In this document: in pieces, positions 1 through 31,391 of the stretch | Layout: each line of letters starts with the position of its first letter | Numbering within the stretch: position 1 is the first letter of the stretch | Source: a virus | Length of the DNA stretch: 31,391 bases | Virus record (IMG/VR): IMGVR_UViG_3300021379_001448 | Coordinates: 1 to 31,391 of that record | Direction: 5' to 3' (one strand) | The notes under the pieces: model-generated | Told to the model about the DNA's origin: nothing | The model's database searches: none | The model's input: the letters and a program-made list of their open reading frames with translations, nothing else | Program-made: the position numbers and the translations under genes

Positions 1-138
1 ATCTTGAACGTTAAACAATAGATCGTATTTTAAAGGGGTCGAATTCGACTGGTTTATATTAGATTCAGTTTTAGTCGTGACTATTTTGGAATTCGTTAAG
101 TTTTGGTCATTTACCGTTTTTTTTTTAGTTTATCGATC
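1..138. repeat. Terminal direct repeat, left copy (10-T version)
   Basis: These 138 bases recur at the right end, identical except for the T-run at 117-126, which has 10 bases here and 11 in the other copy. The repeat lies inside coding sequence on the minus strand, so it is more likely the overlap of a circular assembly than a functional phage terminus. A genuine short T7-like terminal repeat cannot be excluded. Confidence 0.95.
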
Positions 139-563
139 GAACCACCAAGGAATATGCGTAAAACATCTTTTAGTCCTAGCGTTGATACAAGTATCCCTAC
201 AATACCAAACTCAAACCACCATGCAGTGTCGTTCAATGCTTTCCACCCTTGCGCCATTGTTGCCTGTGTAGCAGGAATAAAGGTTAGTATCATAATAATA
301 AAAAAACCTACAATAATAAACTCGTCGATTAATGATTCACGTCTATTTTTAAGAACTTGCATATCATACGTCATATCATTAGCAGCTTGTGTTTGTTGCT
401 GTTTAATCTGTGCCTTTAATTTTGCCACATCTAAATCTATTTTAGCTTGCTCAATAGATAGTTTGCCTTTTTCTTTTATCTCTTTAATTGCTTGATCTTT
501 CTTAACAACATCGCCAACGGTGCCAACGACGGAGCCTACAAGTTTACCAATGATATTAAGCAT
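111..563 (-). CDS. Holin-like membrane protein (GTA-holin/DUF3154-like)
   Basis: 150 residues as read from this copy. Residues 25-75 form a charged helical region (lysine/glutamine-rich). A short RRESLIDE motif comes before two membrane segments at about 82-98 and 115-131, and the end is KLKKKR. Two clustered hydrophobic helices with an SW/L-I-DE-like motif just before them recall the gene-transfer-agent-type holins, so a lysis-timing hole former is the best guess. A GGA ribosome site lies about ten bases before the ATG, which overlaps the end of the SNase gene by eight bases. The stop TAA at 111-113 directly follows the poly-A tract. With 11 A's, as in the right repeat copy, the frame does not stop here but continues for 157 residues into the L,D-transpeptidase-like domain (30896-31391), giving a 306-residue protein. 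Function is inferred. Confidence 0.7.
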   Translation of the reverse strand: MLNIIGKLVGSVVGTVGDVVKKDQAIKEIKEKGKLSIEQAKIDLDVAKLKAQIKQQQTQAANDMTYDMQVLKNRRESLIDEFIIVGFFIIMILTFIPATQATMAQGWKALNDTAWWFEFGIVGILVSTLGLKDVLRIFLGGSIDKLKKKR

Positions 564-921
564 TTTTTAGAAATCCTTTTTCTTTAAGCATGTCAGCAAT
601 AGACACCCCATCGATATACACCTTAGCTAAATAACGGCCAAATTTACCCTTCTTGTCTTGTATAGTTTCGACAATAACAAATGCTTTGTTTGCATGTGCT
701 TTTTTAAAAGTTTCTTCGCAAAAATCTTTGGCTTGTAATCCCTTAATCTTTTCTTCCGGAGTTGTATTTCCACGAAGACTTCTTTCGTATGCATCCACAC
801 CAAATAGCCTAATTCTATGCTTCACGCTAATGTCAAAACCCAAATCAATTATTACATCATACGTATCGCCATCAACGACATTGTAGACTTGTGCCCTATA
901 TTTATATTGTGCTTTTTGCAT
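556..921 (-). CDS. SNase-like (thermonuclease) endonuclease
   Basis: 121-residue staphylococcal-nuclease fold protein. The VVDGDT motif (D17, D19), RIRLFGVDAYE (R38, D43, E46) and FGRYLA (R96) match the calcium-binding and catalytic positions of the family. It should cut DNA or RNA to nucleotides. The ATG at 921 is chosen over a longer open frame from 993 because an AAGG site precedes it and the longer version would overlap the gene upstream. There is no signal peptide, so it acts in the cytoplasm unless released at lysis. It is overlapped by the holin-like start downstream, which suggests co-expression with lysis. A role in host-DNA breakdown is possible but not shown. Confidence 0.85.
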   Translation of the reverse strand: MQKAQYKYRAQVYNVVDGDTYDVIIDLGFDISVKHRIRLFGVDAYERSLRGNTTPEEKIKGLQAKDFCEETFKKAHANKAFVIVETIQDKKGKFGRYLAKVYIDGVSIADMLKEKGFLKNA

Positions 922-937
922 ATCGTTTTCCTTTTTT

Positions 938-1099
938 TTAATTAATATTAATCCAGAAAGTATCAAATTCATTATCTGCCTGTAACCAATCATTTACATT
1001 ATCTTCATCAAAATTTTTATTTGCATAAATGTAAACGTTATAATCTTCAATGGTATAAAAGCAAAAGTCAAATTTAACAAATTCTAAATTTTTAATCAT
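938..1099 (-). CDS. Small acidic hypothetical protein (53 aa)
   Basis: A 53-codon frame from ATG (1097-1099) to TAA (938-940), fitting exactly between the zinc-ribbon gene and the nuclease gene. It is acidic and rich in Asp, Asn, Phe and Tyr, with a C-terminal stretch containing DTFWININ. I recognise no family. Support comes from the tight tiling of the operon (2-base and 16-base gaps) rather than from homology. Confidence 0.5.
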   Translation of the reverse strand: MIKNLEFVKFDFCFYTIEDYNVYIYANKNFDEDNVNDWLQADNEFDTFWININ

Positions 1100-7267: not shown

Positions 7268-7630
7268 ATGATAGATAAATACAGCACAAAAAAAGAAGTG
7301 TTGCAAGCGGTAAAACACTATGGGGGTTATTTGGCAGATGCCAGTAAGGAATTGCGTGGTGATCGTGAGGTGGTGTTAGAAGCAGTGAAATCAAATGGGT
7401 TTGCGTTGGAGGATGCCAGTGAGGAATTAAAGAATGAACGTGAGATCGTATTGGAAGCCGTACAACAGTATACTTATGCGTTGGAATATGCTAGTGAGGA
7501 ATTAAAAAATGATCGTGAGGTTGTGATGCAAGCATTGAGGCAGAATAGATGTGCGTGGGAATTTGTAAGCGATGAATTGCAACTTGAAATTATAAACTTA
7601 TGGATTCAGCATATGGAGAATAGTCAATGA
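7268..7630 (+). CDS. DUF4116-repeat protein
   Basis: 120 residues made of four tandem repeats of about 25 residues (6-31, 32-56, 57-81, 82-105). The consensus is D-R-E-V-V-L-E-A-V, variable residues, A-L-E-x-A-S-E-E-L-K-N, the DUF4116 pattern. These repeats fold as paired helices and are found in amoeba-associated bacteria, protists and giant viruses. Their function is unknown; a protein-interaction scaffold is likely. AAGGAGG precedes the ATG. The gene is second in the unit driven by early promoter 1 and overlaps the next gene by four bases. Such repeats are unusual in a phage of this size. Confidence 0.85.
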   Translation: MIDKYSTKKEVLQAVKHYGGYLADASKELRGDREVVLEAVKSNGFALEDASEELKNEREIVLEAVQQYTYALEYASEELKNDREVVMQALRQNRCAWEFVSDELQLEIINLWIQHMENSQ

Positions 7631-10483: not shown

Positions 10484-10501
10484 TATATTGATAAGTTATA
10501 T

Positions 10502-10535
10502 AGGCTACATATATTTTTATGTGGCCTTTTTTTTT
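10502..10535 (+). terminator. Rho-independent terminator
   Basis: Stem arms AGGCTACATA and TATGTGGCCT, ten pairs with one G-U, around a TATTTT loop, followed by eight or more T's. It closes the SSB-side transcription unit. Confidence 0.85.
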
Positions 10536-12256: not shown

Positions 12257-12800
12257 TTATGAAAAAACAGTAACGGCAATGGTATTAAAAGCCTATGCCC
12301 TTGTAGGCCAAGAAGACAAACAAATACAAATAAAAGCATTGGCAGAAGCGATTATAGAAAGGCAGATTGATCTGAAATTACTTAATGAAGCATTAAATAA
12401 ACATTCTGAGACATCGGAATTTGCGCCAAGATTAAAAAATATTATGGATTATGTGAACAATATACCACATAACCAAGTTAATGAGTTCCTAGAGCGTTTT
12501 CGTAAGCAGTCTAGGAACCATTATGACTGGAACCCTATTGATGATGACGTATACACCATTAAACAGATCATTGGCAGACAACGTTGTGAGGATTGTTTAT
12601 CTGAGCATTGGGTATTTATCGAAAAAGAAGCCAAAGAGCTATACAAAGATTTAAGAAATAAAAAAATTGAGCTTATCGAAAATCCAAATAAACATAATAT
12701 TAAACAGATTGAAGGCTCTAATACGGTTTATATTGAGGCTAAAGAAAACATGGAAAAAGGAATAAATCCGCTCAAAAAGTTATTAAAGGAATACAAATGA
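12249..12800 (+). CDS. Hypothetical replication-operon protein
   Basis: 183 residues. The N-terminal 75 residues are helical, with a segment ending FAPRLKNIMDYV similar in form to helicase-loader-like proteins such as G39P, a weak resemblance. The middle has CEDC (about 112-115) in RQRCEDCLSEHW, a possible metal site. A GGAGG site precedes the ATG. It ends in an ATGA overlap with dapF, so the two are translationally coupled. A DnaB loader would fit the operon, but this is not established. Confidence 0.6.
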   Translation: MNNYEKTVTAMVLKAYALVGQEDKQIQIKALAEAIIERQIDLKLLNEALNKHSETSEFAPRLKNIMDYVNNIPHNQVNEFLERFRKQSRNHYDWNPIDDDVYTIKQIIGRQRCEDCLSEHWVFIEKEAKELYKDLRNKKIELIENPNKHNIKQIEGSNTVYIEAKENMEKGINPLKKLLKEYK

Positions 12801-13519
12801 TATACAGCGCAGACGGCAACACATTTGCTATACATGACTATGCTAAAAACAATAAAGCCCCTTTGCAAAGGTTTGAAGAAGGCGTTGACGGCTATATTGA
12901 ACTTTATGCGTCGCATCAAGCTGACTACAAAATGATAATAGTTAATAAAGACATGACCACTGCCGAGATGTGTGGCAATGCCATACGGTGCATTATTAAA
13001 TATTTACGTGAAAATAATATAAATAAAAATAGAAAGATTAACATTGAAACGGACGCAGGAATCATAAGAACTAAACTTGTTTACCACCCATTAGGTGATA
13101 AATTACATATTAGTATGGCTCCCGCTACGCTATATACACATGGGCTTATTAATGGCTACTTGATTAACCCTGTTGATGTTGGGAATCCGCACGCCGTTGT
13201 ATATGTTGAAAATTTGGAACTTGTAACAGAAGATATTGCAAAAGAAATCCAAGAATATAAAAATGAATTTGAGGAACTGGTTTTTCCTAATGGCGTTAAT
13301 GTTGAATTTGCGTGTTTTAGAGACGATGGAATATACGTAAGAGTTTTTGAGCGTGGTGTGGGAGAAACGCAATCATGTGGAACAGGTGCATGTGCAGTCG
13401 CATTGGTTTCTAACTTTAACGAACTATGTGGCGATAACGTAACAATCAAAATGAAAGGCGGTGATATTGATGTCAAGGTAGAAGGCAAGGTTGCGACGAT
13501 GGTTACTAATTTAATTTAA
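12797..13519 (+). CDS. dapF: Diaminopimelate epimerase (DapF)
   Basis: 240 residues, shorter than the usual 270-280, but with the full catalytic set. The first catalytic cysteine is C59 in TTAEMCGNAIRC and the second is C194 in ERGVGETQSCGTGACA. GNPHAVV (129-135), FPNGVNVEF (163-171) and an N-terminal DGNTF (6-10) replace or match the substrate-binding blocks. The family converts LL- to meso-diaminopimelate without a cofactor, a precursor of lysine and of peptidoglycan stems. The missing residues come from short loops, mainly in the N-terminal lobe. It is coupled to the gene before it in the middle of a replication operon. A relaxed or different amino-acid racemase specificity (such as histidine racemase) is the alternative. 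Confidence 0.92.
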   Translation: MIYSADGNTFAIHDYAKNNKAPLQRFEEGVDGYIELYASHQADYKMIIVNKDMTTAEMCGNAIRCIIKYLRENNINKNRKINIETDAGIIRTKLVYHPLGDKLHISMAPATLYTHGLINGYLINPVDVGNPHAVVYVENLELVTEDIAKEIQEYKNEFEELVFPNGVNVEFACFRDDGIYVRVFERGVGETQSCGTGACAVALVSNFNELCGDNVTIKMKGGDIDVKVEGKVATMVTNLI

Positions 13520-13901: not shown

Positions 13902-14285
13902 ATGCATAAAATAGAAAAAAAAATTAAACTATTATCTGTAAATGGAGCTTGGCAGGGTAGAAGATATAAAACGAAAAATTATGACGCATACCAAAAAACA
14001 CTGTTGTATACCCTGCCAAACGAAAAAATTAATACTACCAATTCTTATTATATAATTTTTATTTTTAATTTTTCAAATAAATTATCTGATTGGGACAATC
14101 CAATTAAACCATTGCAGGATATCTTACAAAAAAAATATGGGTTTAATGATCGAGATATCTTTATAGCATTAACCTTTAAAAAAATAGTTCCTAAAAAGGA
14201 TGAGGGATTTATTGTGTATATAGGGGACTCTAATAATTTTTATGCTGATCTTGAAATTATAAAAAAACAACAAAAAATAGAATAG
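13902..14285 (+). CDS. rusA: RusA-type Holliday junction resolvase
   Basis: 127 residues. SVNGAWQGRRY (12-22) is the N-terminal motif, and SDWDNPIKPLQDIL (62-75) with FNDRDI (81-86) carries the conserved acids D63, D65, D73, D83 and the lysine K69 of RusA. It cuts four-way junctions or branched concatemers before packaging, in keeping with the annealing protein and SSB upstream. Last gene of the rightward operon. Its end overlaps the convergent tail-anchored gene by 29 bases. There is no good ribosome site directly before the ATG. Confidence 0.85.
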   Translation: MHKIEKKIKLLSVNGAWQGRRYKTKNYDAYQKTLLYTLPNEKINTTNSYYIIFIFNFSNKLSDWDNPIKPLQDILQKKYGFNDRDIFIALTFKKIVPKKDEGFIVYIGDSNNFYADLEIIKKQQKIE

Positions 14286-14508
14286 CTAAATTTAAAAAAA
14301 TTAATAAAATAATTCCAGTTTTAAAAATGTCTATTACTTTGTCAATGCCATCCCATCTCGTTTTAGTTAGTTCTTGTATTCCTGTAATTTTTTCGTTTAG
14401 ATCATCGCATTGCTGCTTCAGATTAAACACGGCTTTTTTCTTTGTTGCTGTGCATGTATCGCAACATTTTTTGCATAATTTTTGTTTCGTACATCCTTCT
14501 AATGCCAT
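14257..14508 (-). CDS. Cys-rich tail-anchored membrane protein
   Basis: 83 residues from ATG 14508, with a GGA seven bases upstream. A TTG at 14520 is an alternative start. The N-terminus has six cysteines in 34 residues, including CKKCCDTC (12-19). A helical stretch follows, and residues 64-83 are a hydrophobic helix reaching the very C-terminus, a tail-anchor topology. It overlaps the preceding gene by 86 bases in another frame and the convergent resolvase gene by 29. Lysis or envelope function is possible because it ends the operon with the peptidase-like and holin-like genes. Confidence 0.55.
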   Translation of the reverse strand: MALEGCTKQKLCKKCCDTCTATKKKAVFNLKQQCDDLNEKITGIQELTKTRWDGIDKVIDIFKTGIILLIFLNLAILFFVVFL

Positions 14509-14677
14509 AAGTTTTTCCAAAATTATAAATCAGCATAACAAAAAATATTTCTGTAATAGCCTCTATTTTAACGTCATGCAAATAGTATGCCATCGGAATT
14601 GCAATAAATGCATTTCCTGCTACGTCTGTAAGGATTTGCGTTGTTGTTTCTGTTAAACTTTGCAATCTACTTTGCAT
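14423..14677 (-). CDS. DUF7220-like small membrane protein
   Basis: 84 residues. The beginning MQSRLQSLTET and the later GKTYGIRRMYE (54-64) fit a family of small phage proteins, seen elsewhere as MQSRxxSLIE ... RRxF, with two membrane helices between them (here about 18-33 and 40-54). The function of the family is unknown; holin-like use is possible. The protein runs on for about 20 residues beyond the family's usual end, over a stretch that also encodes the next gene. Confidence 0.65.
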   Translation of the reverse strand: MQSRLQSLTETTTQILTDVAGNAFIAIPMAYYLHDVKIEAITEIFFVMLIYNFGKTYGIRRMYETKIMQKMLRYMHSNKEKSRV

Positions 14678-15137
14678 TTTTTGCAGTAAGCCCTAAGCAA
14701 ATCATGCGTACATCCTTAGGGCTTAAGTTTGTTTGCAAGTCATTTTTAGTGATGCCATAAGCATGTTTTAAGATTGGCAAAAACAATTCTGAACAAAAAT
14801 ATTTATCTGATTCATGGACTTTATGACCAAAAAAACCAAAAATAACACCAAACAAGTCATATTTTTTGCCAAGCATTGACTCAAACTCCTTAACAATTTT
14901 TTGTGTTGTTTTTTTGTCGATGTTTAATTCTATTGTGTGCGCTATATCATCTCTAGGCTCAATCAAGCTTGATACCCCACTAAAAAATTCAGATTCATAA
15001 AAAATTTTATTTTCTTCAAAGCTGACATGGTAATAAGCATCATTTGAACGTGTTTTGATTATACTTGTTGTGTATTTAAGTGGATTCCACCATTTATAAT
15101 ATTTACGATGAAAGTGTACTTTTATGATTTTATTCAA
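14667..15137 (-). CDS. Permuted NlpC/P60 (YiiX-like) cysteine peptidase
   Basis: 156 residues from a TTG start at 15137, the only initiator near the ribosome site GGAAAG. No ATG lies in the first 80 codons. The YYHVSFEE segment (about residues 36-43) gives the histidine and KYFCSELF (about 113-120) the nucleophilic cysteine, in the reversed order typical of permuted papain-like NlpC/P60 proteins. YDLFGVIFGFFG lies between them. Members cut peptide or amide bonds in cell walls or lipids. It overlaps a holin-like gene at each end and so may be part of an envelope-degrading or lysis module. No signal peptide is visible. Confidence 0.65.
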   Translation of the reverse strand: MNKIIKVHFHRKYYKWWNPLKYTTSIIKTRSNDAYYHVSFEENKIFYESEFFSGVSSLIEPRDDIAHTIELNIDKKTTQKIVKEFESMLGKKYDLFGVIFGFFGHKVHESDKYFCSELFLPILKHAYGITKNDLQTNLSPKDVRMICLGLTAKNAK

Positions 15138-15384
15138 TTTCTAGCTTTCCCGCCATCTTATAAAGAACCTTGTTTATTTGTTTCAGCTCAAGTGCTATTT
15201 TAGCGAATTGTTCGTCAGTGTGTGAACGATACTCGTTCATAGTGCTCTTTAGAATATTAACTTGATTTGTCATTTTATAGATATAAAATCCCATCCCCCC
15301 ATACAGTATTACAAACACATATGCCTGCCCATTAGGGCCACGAAGTATATCAAGTAATGAAGGTATAATGCGTATTATTTCCAT
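15130..15384 (-). CDS. Small membrane protein with coiled-coil tail
   Basis: 84 residues with one membrane helix at about 19-37 and a coiled tail with KMTNQVNILKSTMNEYRSH and KIALELKQINKVLYKM. This N-terminal-TM/coiled-coil layout is shared by XhlA/BhlA-type holin-like proteins. It starts three bases after the tail-collar gene and its stop overlaps the start of the peptidase-like gene, TTG within the last codons. Confidence 0.6.
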   Translation of the reverse strand: MEIIRIIPSLLDILRGPNGQAYVFVILYGGMGFYIYKMTNQVNILKSTMNEYRSHTDEQFAKIALELKQINKVLYKMAGKLEIE

Positions 15385-28031: not shown

Positions 28032-30026
28032 ATGGATAATCCTTTTATCAATTACCTGAATAATTTACTAAGTCAGGCTAAAGTGGGACACAACACAAAA
28101 CAACTAAAAAAATATAAGCGTTATTACGATGGTTCGTTTGAGCCTATTACTGGTACTGATCGAAATGGAAACACCACGCTTGGAAGTGCTGGGCAAGGTA
28201 ACGCATACTATAACGTTATAAAGCCAATCGTTGAAACTAAAGCTACAACCGCTTTGGATGCAATGATAACGACGAACGTTAAGCCGGCTAATCTATCTCA
28301 TCAAACATTTGACAACTTAAAGCAGTTAGAATCTATCGCAGATATTTTAAATGATTGCTGGGAAAACATAAAAAGAAGTTCTGAATTACCGAACATTTCA
28401 CAAAAAGTTATGCGTGATGGGTCAATCTATGGCGTAGGTATTGCCAAAGTTATATGGAATCAGTCAATTAATAATGGGTTAGGTGATATAAGAATAGAGC
28501 GTGTTAGTCCATTGGATTTCTACCCTGAGCCAACTGCAACAAACATTGAAAACTGTAACTATATATTTGTTAAACGTGTTATTAGTCGTTTTGATTTAAT
28601 TAATCAATACAAAAATAAACCTGAGATTCTTAAAAAAATTGATAAATTAAGCTCACCATCGGCAACTATCGACATGGGAGAACCCACAAACAAAGTCGTT
28701 GCTGGCAAGGTAAGCGCTAACGGTGTCACTACTGGCAGTGAAATGTATTTAAACAAAGGCAGTTTAAAGCCAAGTGGGACTGAACATAATATCGAACTAT
28801 GGGAATGCTACTTAAAAGATGATACCGTTTTAGTTCCTTTGGATGATGAATCAGAGCAAGATCAAGAAATGAAAACCGAGGAAAGGTTTAAATATCCTAA
28901 TGGACGCTTAATTATTTTTAGTGGTGAGGAAATATTGGAAGATCGGCCAATCGATTACCCTTTTGGTTTTCCGTTCTCAACTTACTCACCAACACAATCA
29001 GATACTCTTATGGGGCAAGGAGACGTTGAGGATTTAATGCAGATACAAACACGCTTAACCAATGCTTACGCAAAACTTCAAGAGTTAATCATAAAATACA
29101 AATCAATGTTGGTGGTTCCTGAAAACTACCGGAGACAGTTTCAAGGGAATTTCGATATTATTGGAAGCCAACCGGGTGATCCAATGACACAACCAATGTT
29201 AGTTACCAACAAACTAACACAAGATATCCAAATTATTAGACAACACATACAAGACTTAAAACAAGACGCTTATAAGATCGCTCGTATTAATGAGATTATG
29301 CTATCAGGTGAGCGCCCTGTAGGTGTTAATAGTGGCCAAATGGTTAGAGACTTAGTTGAATCTCCAATGTCATCTATAAGAGAAATGCAACGTAATTTTA
29401 AAAACTTCTTAACTGACATTAGCAATAAAGCTATTGTTTTAATTCAGTTATACTATAACCAGCCACGAATCATACGTATGGCTAGTGGAACACGATTTGC
29501 GTCAATGGAACCTAACGAAATGGGTGAAATGCAAATCAACATATATGATCGTGACATGCAAACTAAAGAGCTAAAAGCTATAGATGAAATAAAGTCTGAC
29601 CTAACACTTGGGGAGTATGAAGTAGAAATAACCGCTGGTAGCTCACTACCACAATCGCAATCAGCAATCGCTGCAACCACACTACAACTAGCTCAACAAG
29701 GCATTTTTGGGGATATCAATAACCCGGATGTTAAAGAGCTTATACTTCGCACCCTAGATTATCCTAACTACCGAGCAATCATCAATAAAATAAAAGAAGA
29801 ACAAGATGAACAAGCTCAAGTGCCATTACCTGAACCAGACTTCAACGCTTACATTAAAAACGTAAACATGAGCCTAAAAGATATTATTGAATTGATTGCA
29901 GTGTTGCCAGTAGAGCAACAAGTATCAGCAATTAGTACCATAACGGATAGCTTAGGGCTAACAATGCCACAAACGCCAATGCCTGAAATGCAACAAATGC
30001 CGAATTTTATTAATAGTATAGGATGA
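28032..30026 (+). CDS. Portal protein
   Basis: 664 residues, the size of P22-type portals. Recognised parts are the N-terminal KRYYDGSFEPITGTDRNGNTTLG, VIKPIVETKATTALDAMITTN, and YGVGIAKVIWNQSINNGLGDIRIERVSPLDFYPEP (about 139-173). Further on are PFGFPFSTYSPTQSDTLMGQGDVEDLMQIQTRLTNAYAKLQEL and the long helical MVRDLVESPMSSIREMQRNF. The C-terminal Gln/Met-rich tail may form the barrel. It is the dodecameric DNA gate of the capsid. AAAGG lies upstream of the ATG. It is on the strand opposite to terminase and capsid. Confidence 0.9.
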   Translation: MDNPFINYLNNLLSQAKVGHNTKQLKKYKRYYDGSFEPITGTDRNGNTTLGSAGQGNAYYNVIKPIVETKATTALDAMITTNVKPANLSHQTFDNLKQLESIADILNDCWENIKRSSELPNISQKVMRDGSIYGVGIAKVIWNQSINNGLGDIRIERVSPLDFYPEPTATNIENCNYIFVKRVISRFDLINQYKNKPEILKKIDKLSSPSATIDMGEPTNKVVAGKVSANGVTTGSEMYLNKGSLKPSGTEHNIELWECYLKDDTVLVPLDDESEQDQEMKTEERFKYPNGRLIIFSGEEILEDRPIDYPFGFPFSTYSPTQSDTLMGQGDVEDLMQIQTRLTNAYAKLQELIIKYKSMLVVPENYRRQFQGNFDIIGSQPGDPMTQPMLVTNKLTQDIQIIRQHIQDLKQDAYKIARINEIMLSGERPVGVNSGQMVRDLVESPMSSIREMQRNFKNFLTDISNKAIVLIQLYYNQPRIIRMASGTRFASMEPNEMGEMQINIYDRDMQTKELKAIDEIKSDLTLGEYEVEITAGSSLPQSQSAIAATTLQLAQQGIFGDINNPDVKELILRTLDYPNYRAIINKIKEEQDEQAQVPLPEPDFNAYIKNVNMSLKDIIELIAVLPVEQQVSAISTITDSLGLTMPQTPMPEMQQMPNFINSIG

Positions 30027-30895: not shown

Positions 30896-31391
30896 CTATT
30901 TATTAACAAATAATATCAATTCTTTTTTACTCTTTAATAATGTGCTTATTTCATGGTACGCTTGCACGTCTTTATTCTTAATACCTATACATCCCCTAGT
31001 GCCTTCCACGCCACCGTCAGGATGTATTAACAGTTTTGATCTATTAGTTTGAAATTGTGGAATAAGTTTAGCTACCCATGGGTATTGGGTACCGGTATAA
31101 CGCTCTGTTTTACCTTTAATCGGCTTTAATTTATAGCACTTATTTATTTTGTATTTACCTTTAGGCAATGCCCCCAATCCATATTTGCCACTTACACAAG
31201 AATATTTATTTTGTCCTATACATAAGAACCCAAGTTTAGCATTTGCAAAGGTATCTTGAACGTTAAACAATAGATCGTATTTTAAAGGGGTCGAATTCGA
31301 CTGGTTTATATTAGATTCAGTTTTAGTCGTGACTATTTTGGAATTCGTTAAGTTTTGGTCATTTACCGTTTTTTTTTTTAGTTTATCGATC
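30896..31391 (-). CDS. L,D-transpeptidase-like lysis domain, fused in frame to holin-like protein
   Basis: Open frame running off the right end into the start of the window. Using the 11-A tract it joins the holin-like N-terminus after residue 149, giving 306 residues. The linker (about 150-195) is Asn/Thr/Ser-rich. The domain carries KLLIHPDGGVEGTRGCIGI, with H265 and nucleophile-like C276 of the fused protein, the YkuD/DUF5675-like H-x(n)-G-C layout. It should act on peptidoglycan or peptide crosslinks. The domain has no methionine codon at all and no ribosome site before the only near TTG (31270), so independent translation is improbable. TAG stop at 30896-30898. This entry is partial at its 5' end; the rest is at 111-563. 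Confidence 0.75.
   Translation of the reverse strand, partial: IDKLKKKTVNDQNLTNSKIVTTKTESNINQSNSTPLKYDLLFNVQDTFANAKLGFLCIGQNKYSCVSGKYGLGALPKGKYKINKCYKLKPIKGKTERYTGTQYPWVAKLIPQFQTNRSKLLIHPDGGVEGTRGCIGIKNKDVQAYHEISTLLKSKKELILFVNK
31253..31391. repeat. Terminal direct repeat, right copy (11-T version)
   Basis: This is the second copy of the terminal repeat, 139 bases long because the T-run at 31369-31379 has 11 bases. Collapsing the copies gives a circle of 31,252 or 31,253 bases. The extra base keeps the minus-strand frame open from the holin-like gene into the lysis domain. Confidence 0.95.

Follow-up and report, generated by a model that had tools for sequence, protein, structure and literature searches.

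One gene of the virus analysed here probably has two protein products owing to recoding on a tract of 9 to 11 A's, most likely through slippage of RNA polymerase and perhaps aided by -1 slippage of the ribosome. Read straight through, the gene would yield a holin-like membrane protein ending in a lysine patch, KKK(R/Q/E)-stop, which is conserved in sequence. If the message carries an extra A, or if the ribosome moves back by one base, the protein would continue via a linker into an L,D-transpeptidase domain. The most likely event would be the addition of an A by RNA polymerase in a share of the transcripts.

The window (the whole 31,391-nucleotide stretch that was analysed) is a virus record of 31.25 kb, taken to be circular from the overlap of its ends by 138/139 nt (left copy, 1-138; right copy, 31253-31391, 139 nt). 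Sequence comparison shows that the two end copies match for the first 126 nt and diverge exactly at a difference of one T, the run being read as A10 at the left end (117-126, minus strand; T10 on the plus strand) and as A11 at the right end (31369-31379, minus strand; T11 on the plus strand). The original prediction described these as two repeat copies. The two tract lengths stand, but the separate copies do not, as this is a single locus read twice at the ends of one circular contig, and A10/A11 therefore represents read or population heterogeneity at a homopolymer rather than two genes. Divergence at exactly that point is what an assembly with k=127 would be expected to give if the tract were present in two lengths. 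Translation of both readings agreed with what had been predicted: with A10, the ORF ends in KLKKKR-stop after 150 aa, and with A11, a 306-aa read-through protein continues through a Ser/Thr/Asn linker into an L,D-transpeptidase-like domain with H265 and C276, without any Met beyond residue 150.

Scans of a viral contig collection with junction, enzyme, and holin queries returned about 30 distinct relatives, and the resulting tree contains 29 distinct holin-enzyme junctions, two of which are the window's own two readings. Comparison of the A-tract and both frames in these related phages, which had been suggested as a check, showed conservation of the 0-frame stop as well as of the -1 frame. An uninterrupted run of 9-11 A's is present at all 29 junctions, as well as in the deep relative L101, and at 26 of the 29 the holin-like ORF ends in KKK(R/Q/E)-stop on an uninterrupted A9-A11 with the enzyme open at -1. 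In the common pattern, the 0 frame reads AAA AAA AAA, one further codon (CGG, CGA, CAG, CAA, GAA, or AGG), and TAA, while the enzyme ORF is open in the -1 frame. Since these 26 junctions keep the same -1 offset in their DNA whether the run has 9, 10, or 11 A's, both products are normally encoded by one and the same genome. Run length changes mostly by substitution of a flanking base and not by an indel (for instance, CTT versus CTA); in L014 the run is A11, and yet the enzyme is still at -1 owing to a change of CGG to AGG. Even L101/L135, in which the holin is 67% and the enzyme 47% identical, retain A10 and the -1 offset, without the CGGTAAATGAC context, the usual holin stop, or most of the linker; their own stop lies a few codons past the run.

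The exceptions to this offset are all at the tips of the tree. Two of the 29 junctions are in-frame with A11 (the window's right end and L039/L043), and in one clade (L001, L003, L004, and L005) an A9 after CT puts the enzyme at +1. The members of this clade have the A9 in a CTA context together with a new in-frame ATG in the linker, and their enzyme frame is identical over 480 nt. This clade may have escaped slippage, or it may make the products at a different ratio.

The run itself is also kept among the relatives. A homopolymer of at least 9 A's or T's, as sought for productive transcriptional slippage, is conserved at the frame transition. AAG accounts for none of the 86 Lys codons inside the run versus 59 of 371 elsewhere in the holin, an argument that is weakened by the shared ancestry of the sequences. 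In 31 of 31 sequences, the first Val or Ile codon past the run ends in TA (GTA or ATA), compared with 153 of 534 Val codons (GTA, 29%) and 309 of 776 Ile codons (ATA, 40%) elsewhere in the same genes, and the 0-frame holin stop is thereby kept. When the junction pattern was searched with any 4-16 nt allowed between the flanks, every match in a holin context, among those listed and inspected, had an uninterrupted A9-A10. Most of the window's other runs of at least 8 are not conserved when three near-complete relatives are compared. Apart from the run at the junction, just one run of at least 9 stays at 8-9 in each of them, an intergenic T9 (10527-10535) after a hairpin; judged by its sequence, the combined element (10500-10535) is likely an intrinsic terminator.

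Bacterial RNA polymerase slips at high efficiency on 9 A's or T's, and at the Thermus dnaX run of 9 slippage adds one or more A's (PMC5009743); at A7-A11, the efficiency of insertion is at least double that of deletion (PMC6260861). RNA polymerase slippage is favoured here because the run has at least 9 A's throughout and no AAG interrupts it, because RNAalifold found no conserved downstream structure, and because the required addition of one A goes in the direction favoured on A-runs. It would also explain the tolerance of A9, A10, and A11 at the tips of the tree, as each length would yield both products, although at different ratios.

Programmed -1 ribosomal frameshifting on A_AAA_AAA alone, without polymerase slippage, is a possible but somewhat doubtful source of the fusion. 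The heptamer is found in every lineage and is followed by a second ORF at -1 at 26 of the 29 junctions, this near-constant offset is the one that such a shift requires, and the 0-frame stop lies one codon past the run in most relatives and a few codons later in L101. However, 7 A's would suffice for the ribosome, and yet the run always has at least 9; nor is its third codon ever AAG, although A_AAA_AAG shifts better than A_AAA_AAA on E. coli ribosomes (PMC5009743). Additionally, RNAalifold found no conserved stimulator on the junctions, its sole pairing being a 4-bp hairpin at the palindrome GTCGAATTCGAC (31290-31301, minus strand; on the transcript, about 70 nt beyond the run) without compensatory changes, and the clade with A9 and the enzyme at +1 could not be served by a -1 shift.

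It is unlikely that the two lengths reflect genomic phase variation, with A10 and A11 genomes in one population and the length in the DNA picking either the holin alone or the fusion. Both lengths do occur within one contig, and L041 (A10) and L043 (A11) show no other difference across 941 nt (437 nt in the holin, 504 nt in the enzyme). However, all sequences compared are metagenome assemblies, in which homopolymers are the weakest calls, and A10/A11 mixtures would equally result from sequencing or PCR error. Furthermore, a -1 offset that persists at 26 of the 29 junctions over a deep tree, with length changes that are mostly offset-preserving flanking substitutions, counts against such switching. 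The original idea that poly-A length in the DNA decides the product was thus not supported by the relatives, while its proposal of slippage or frameshifting survives in part: constant DNA with slippage during expression fits the data, whereas a genomic length switch fits them less well.

The Ser/Thr/Asn linker of the enzyme frame (31283-31368, minus strand) has no start codon, and comparison with its homologues suggests that it is maintained as a reading frame. Stops are absent from the enzyme frame of 24 unique linkers, versus 66 and 82 in the other two frames, and linker lengths of 11, 12, 22, 23, and 26 codons differ only by whole codons. The amino acids themselves are not conserved (101 synonymous versus 305 nonsynonymous one-step codon differences when pairs, which are not independent, are pooled), as is expected of a flexible tether. 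Within this otherwise variable linker, the palindrome is retained nearly everywhere, and it encodes the most constant linker residues. A start-like codon is absent from 19 of the 24 unique linkers, and in L038, L042, and L045 the enzyme frame has no ATG, GTG, or TTG through its first 80 codons; the enzyme therefore appears to need the start of the holin. TTG codons do occur in the window's enzyme frame, but the first of them (31268-31270) falls within the folded domain and is not a conserved one. With a domain that has no start of its own and a conserved -1 frame, the enzyme is apparently made only by fusion, as the original prediction held.

These observations make it highly improbable that the enzyme is a separate product, arising by re-initiation or by internal initiation past the holin stop. 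In most relatives the run is followed by TAAATG, some linkers contain TTG, and the L001 clade has its in-frame ATG. However, the ATG after the stop is in the holin frame and is soon stopped (after MTKT in the window), and it is missing from L024, L038, and L101; three lineages are start-free for 80 codons, and internal starts would remove the first strands of the fold. There is an even slighter chance that all genomes carry a plain in-frame fusion whose homopolymer was under-called by one base during assembly. Homopolymers are error-prone and the L039 and L043 contigs are in frame, but an error of exactly one base would be needed at 26 of 29 junctions with lengths of 9, 10, and 11, and neither the xTA stop context in 31 of 31 sequences nor L014, with A11 and the enzyme at -1, would be expected. 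Finally, it is scarcely credible that the enzyme frame, for all its lack of a start codon, is a decaying pseudogene behind the holin, as its catalytic residues and fold are conserved among relatives of 45-88% identity without any stops.

The domain that follows the linker (30896-31282 with its stop codon, minus strand) had been called L,D-transpeptidase-like, and this is borne out by a profile match above cut-off, a predicted fold, and the His/Cys pair. The window's protein scores 24.8-25.7 bits against PF03734 (YkuD; cut-off, 23.4), which 10 of 16 relatives match at E<=0.01. For PF10908 (Tlde1), 15 of 16 relatives match at E<=0.01, but the window's 27.4-28.3 bits fall below the cut-off of 30.1, and the domain is therefore named Tlde1-like only. 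Although plain Foldseek of the predicted enzyme fold against the PDB gave no significant match, the top VIA-align rows are L,D-transpeptidase-fold structures, the best match for residues 37-164 being Tlde1a (7uma; Z 10.7, rmsd 2.6, 112 residues aligned). The H...(S/T)xGC motif is present as H265 (codon at 31022-31024, minus strand) and C276 (30989-30991, minus strand) in TRGCIG, and it is conserved in relatives. The downstream domain is thus predicted to have an L,D-transpeptidase fold, and its activity on peptidoglycan is putative.

The holin-like membrane protein of 150 aa is encoded at 111-563 on the minus strand, with its ATG at 563 and, in the A10 reading, its stop codon at 111-113. The 3' end of an SNase-like nuclease gene (556-993, minus strand; PF00565 above cut-off, phrog_452) overlaps the holin start codon. 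Gp23 of Pseudoalteromonas phage ACA1, which is annotated as a holin through an HHpred match to PF11351, is 51% identical to the window's protein over 80 aa, and a homologue in phage HMO-2011 sits two genes from a lysozyme. The window's protein itself reaches 15.3 bits against PF11351 (GTA-type 3TM holin; cut-off, 24.8), for which reason it is named holin-like only. Hydropathy peaks are at residues 78-96 and 121-139, with a weaker N-terminal peak at 2-20, and the predicted structure is of too low quality for interpretation. The holin call is therefore putative, being based on distant homology.

Beyond the relatives described above, no match was found in annotated phage genomes searched with the portal protein and with the enzyme, or in plasmids searched with the fusion. 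Bacterial genomes gave two weak matches in all, one of which (L190) is a stand-alone lipoprotein-like protein that has its own start, and the other (L191) apparently a chance motif match. Distant holins of P2-like prophages, among those inspected, have neither an A-run nor an enzyme in the next frame, and the proposed device thus looks limited to this clade. The P22-like portal gene (28032-30026, plus strand) is on the opposite strand to the terminase and most structural genes, and a protein of DUF4116 repeats is encoded at 7268-7630 (plus strand; 2.7e-39).

With regard to function, it is quite possible, if short of probable, that slippage of RNA polymerase at a conserved site in a membrane gene of a DNA phage determines the ratio in which plain hole-forming subunits and those with a tethered peptidoglycan L,D-transpeptidase are made, such that one gene supplies both a hole former and a wall-enzyme carrier. 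This ratio may be a fixed one, as had been proposed. A minority fusion would place a wall-modifying enzyme on a subset of the hole-forming subunits, and this enzyme would gain access to the wall at the time and site of membrane opening. The charges predict a cytoplasmic C-terminus after the second membrane segment; opening of the membrane, or a flip of the C-terminus, would thus be needed before the tethered enzyme could reach the wall. Such delivery of an enzyme across the membrane has been proposed for an in-frame holin-endolysin fusion of Clostridium sporogenes (PMC9527704). Tlde1a cleaves tetrapeptide stems and exchanges D-Ala, and cells swell and die (PMC9638812), which makes a wall-weakening role of the fusion plausible; the fusion may act in lysis. 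The region 14257-15384 (minus strand) encodes a hydrolase that weakly matches the YiiX/C92 papain-like amidase family, along with two or three small membrane proteins, and is possibly a second lysis cassette. Given this possible hydrolase cluster, the fusion need not be the lysis enzyme and may be accessory. The window also encodes a phage diaminopimelate epimerase (12797-13519, plus strand; PF01678, 1.8e-33), which was sought in three near-complete relatives and not found there. The product of this enzyme, meso-diaminopimelate, is a wall peptide residue acted on by L,D-transpeptidases in many Gram-negative bacteria. Fusions of this kind are easily missed, as standard gene callers would report the holin and either lose the enzyme or leave it headless. 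If the proposal is true, recoding lets a DNA phage couple membrane opening and wall modification at a built-in ratio.

A-run recoding and holin-enzyme fusions are each known, and their combination in a DNA phage, conserved here over about 30 junctions, was not found in the open papers searched. The open-licence literature searched yielded no holin-enzyme fusion made by slippage or frameshifting; the nearest cases, besides the plain fusion of C. sporogenes, are putative frameshifts near holins in Streptomyces phages. The lambda tail-assembly chaperone G/GT arises from slippage of the ribosome in tail genes rather than in a gene for a membrane protein, and is not known to require an A9. It resembles the present gene in that its -1 recoding is conserved, lies close to the end of a phage gene, and gives a minority fusion (PMC5009743). 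Thermus thermophilus dnaX is alike in that RNA polymerase slips on a homopolymer of 9 to give two C-termini per gene, but there the long product is in frame and slippage gives the short one, whereas in the window the short product is in frame and slippage would give the long one (PMC5009743). In Shigella spa13 and mxiE, transcriptional slippage likewise gives a share of the product a functionally needed C-terminal extension, although these are bacterial secretion-system genes and not a phage membrane protein with an enzyme (PMC5009743). The enzyme domain shares its fold and His...Cys pair with Tlde1a and YkuD L,D-transpeptidases, with TRGC in place of their (S/T)HGC; Tlde1a is a secreted type VI effector, in contrast to the window's domain, which has no export signal of its own and would be tethered to a membrane protein (PMC9638812). 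The C. sporogenes fusion (TpeE/BhlA family) also carries a wall enzyme on the holin C-terminus, and the holin is proposed to carry that enzyme across the membrane (PMC9527704). It is, however, a plain in-frame fusion of a different holin family in which all of the endolysin is fused, whereas the window encodes both a free holin-like protein and a fusion whose enzyme is an L,D-transpeptidase. If the two-product reading is true, the window's gene would be a natural, two-product counterpart of those fusions between holins and enzymes from which it has been argued how holins carry enzymes through the membrane.
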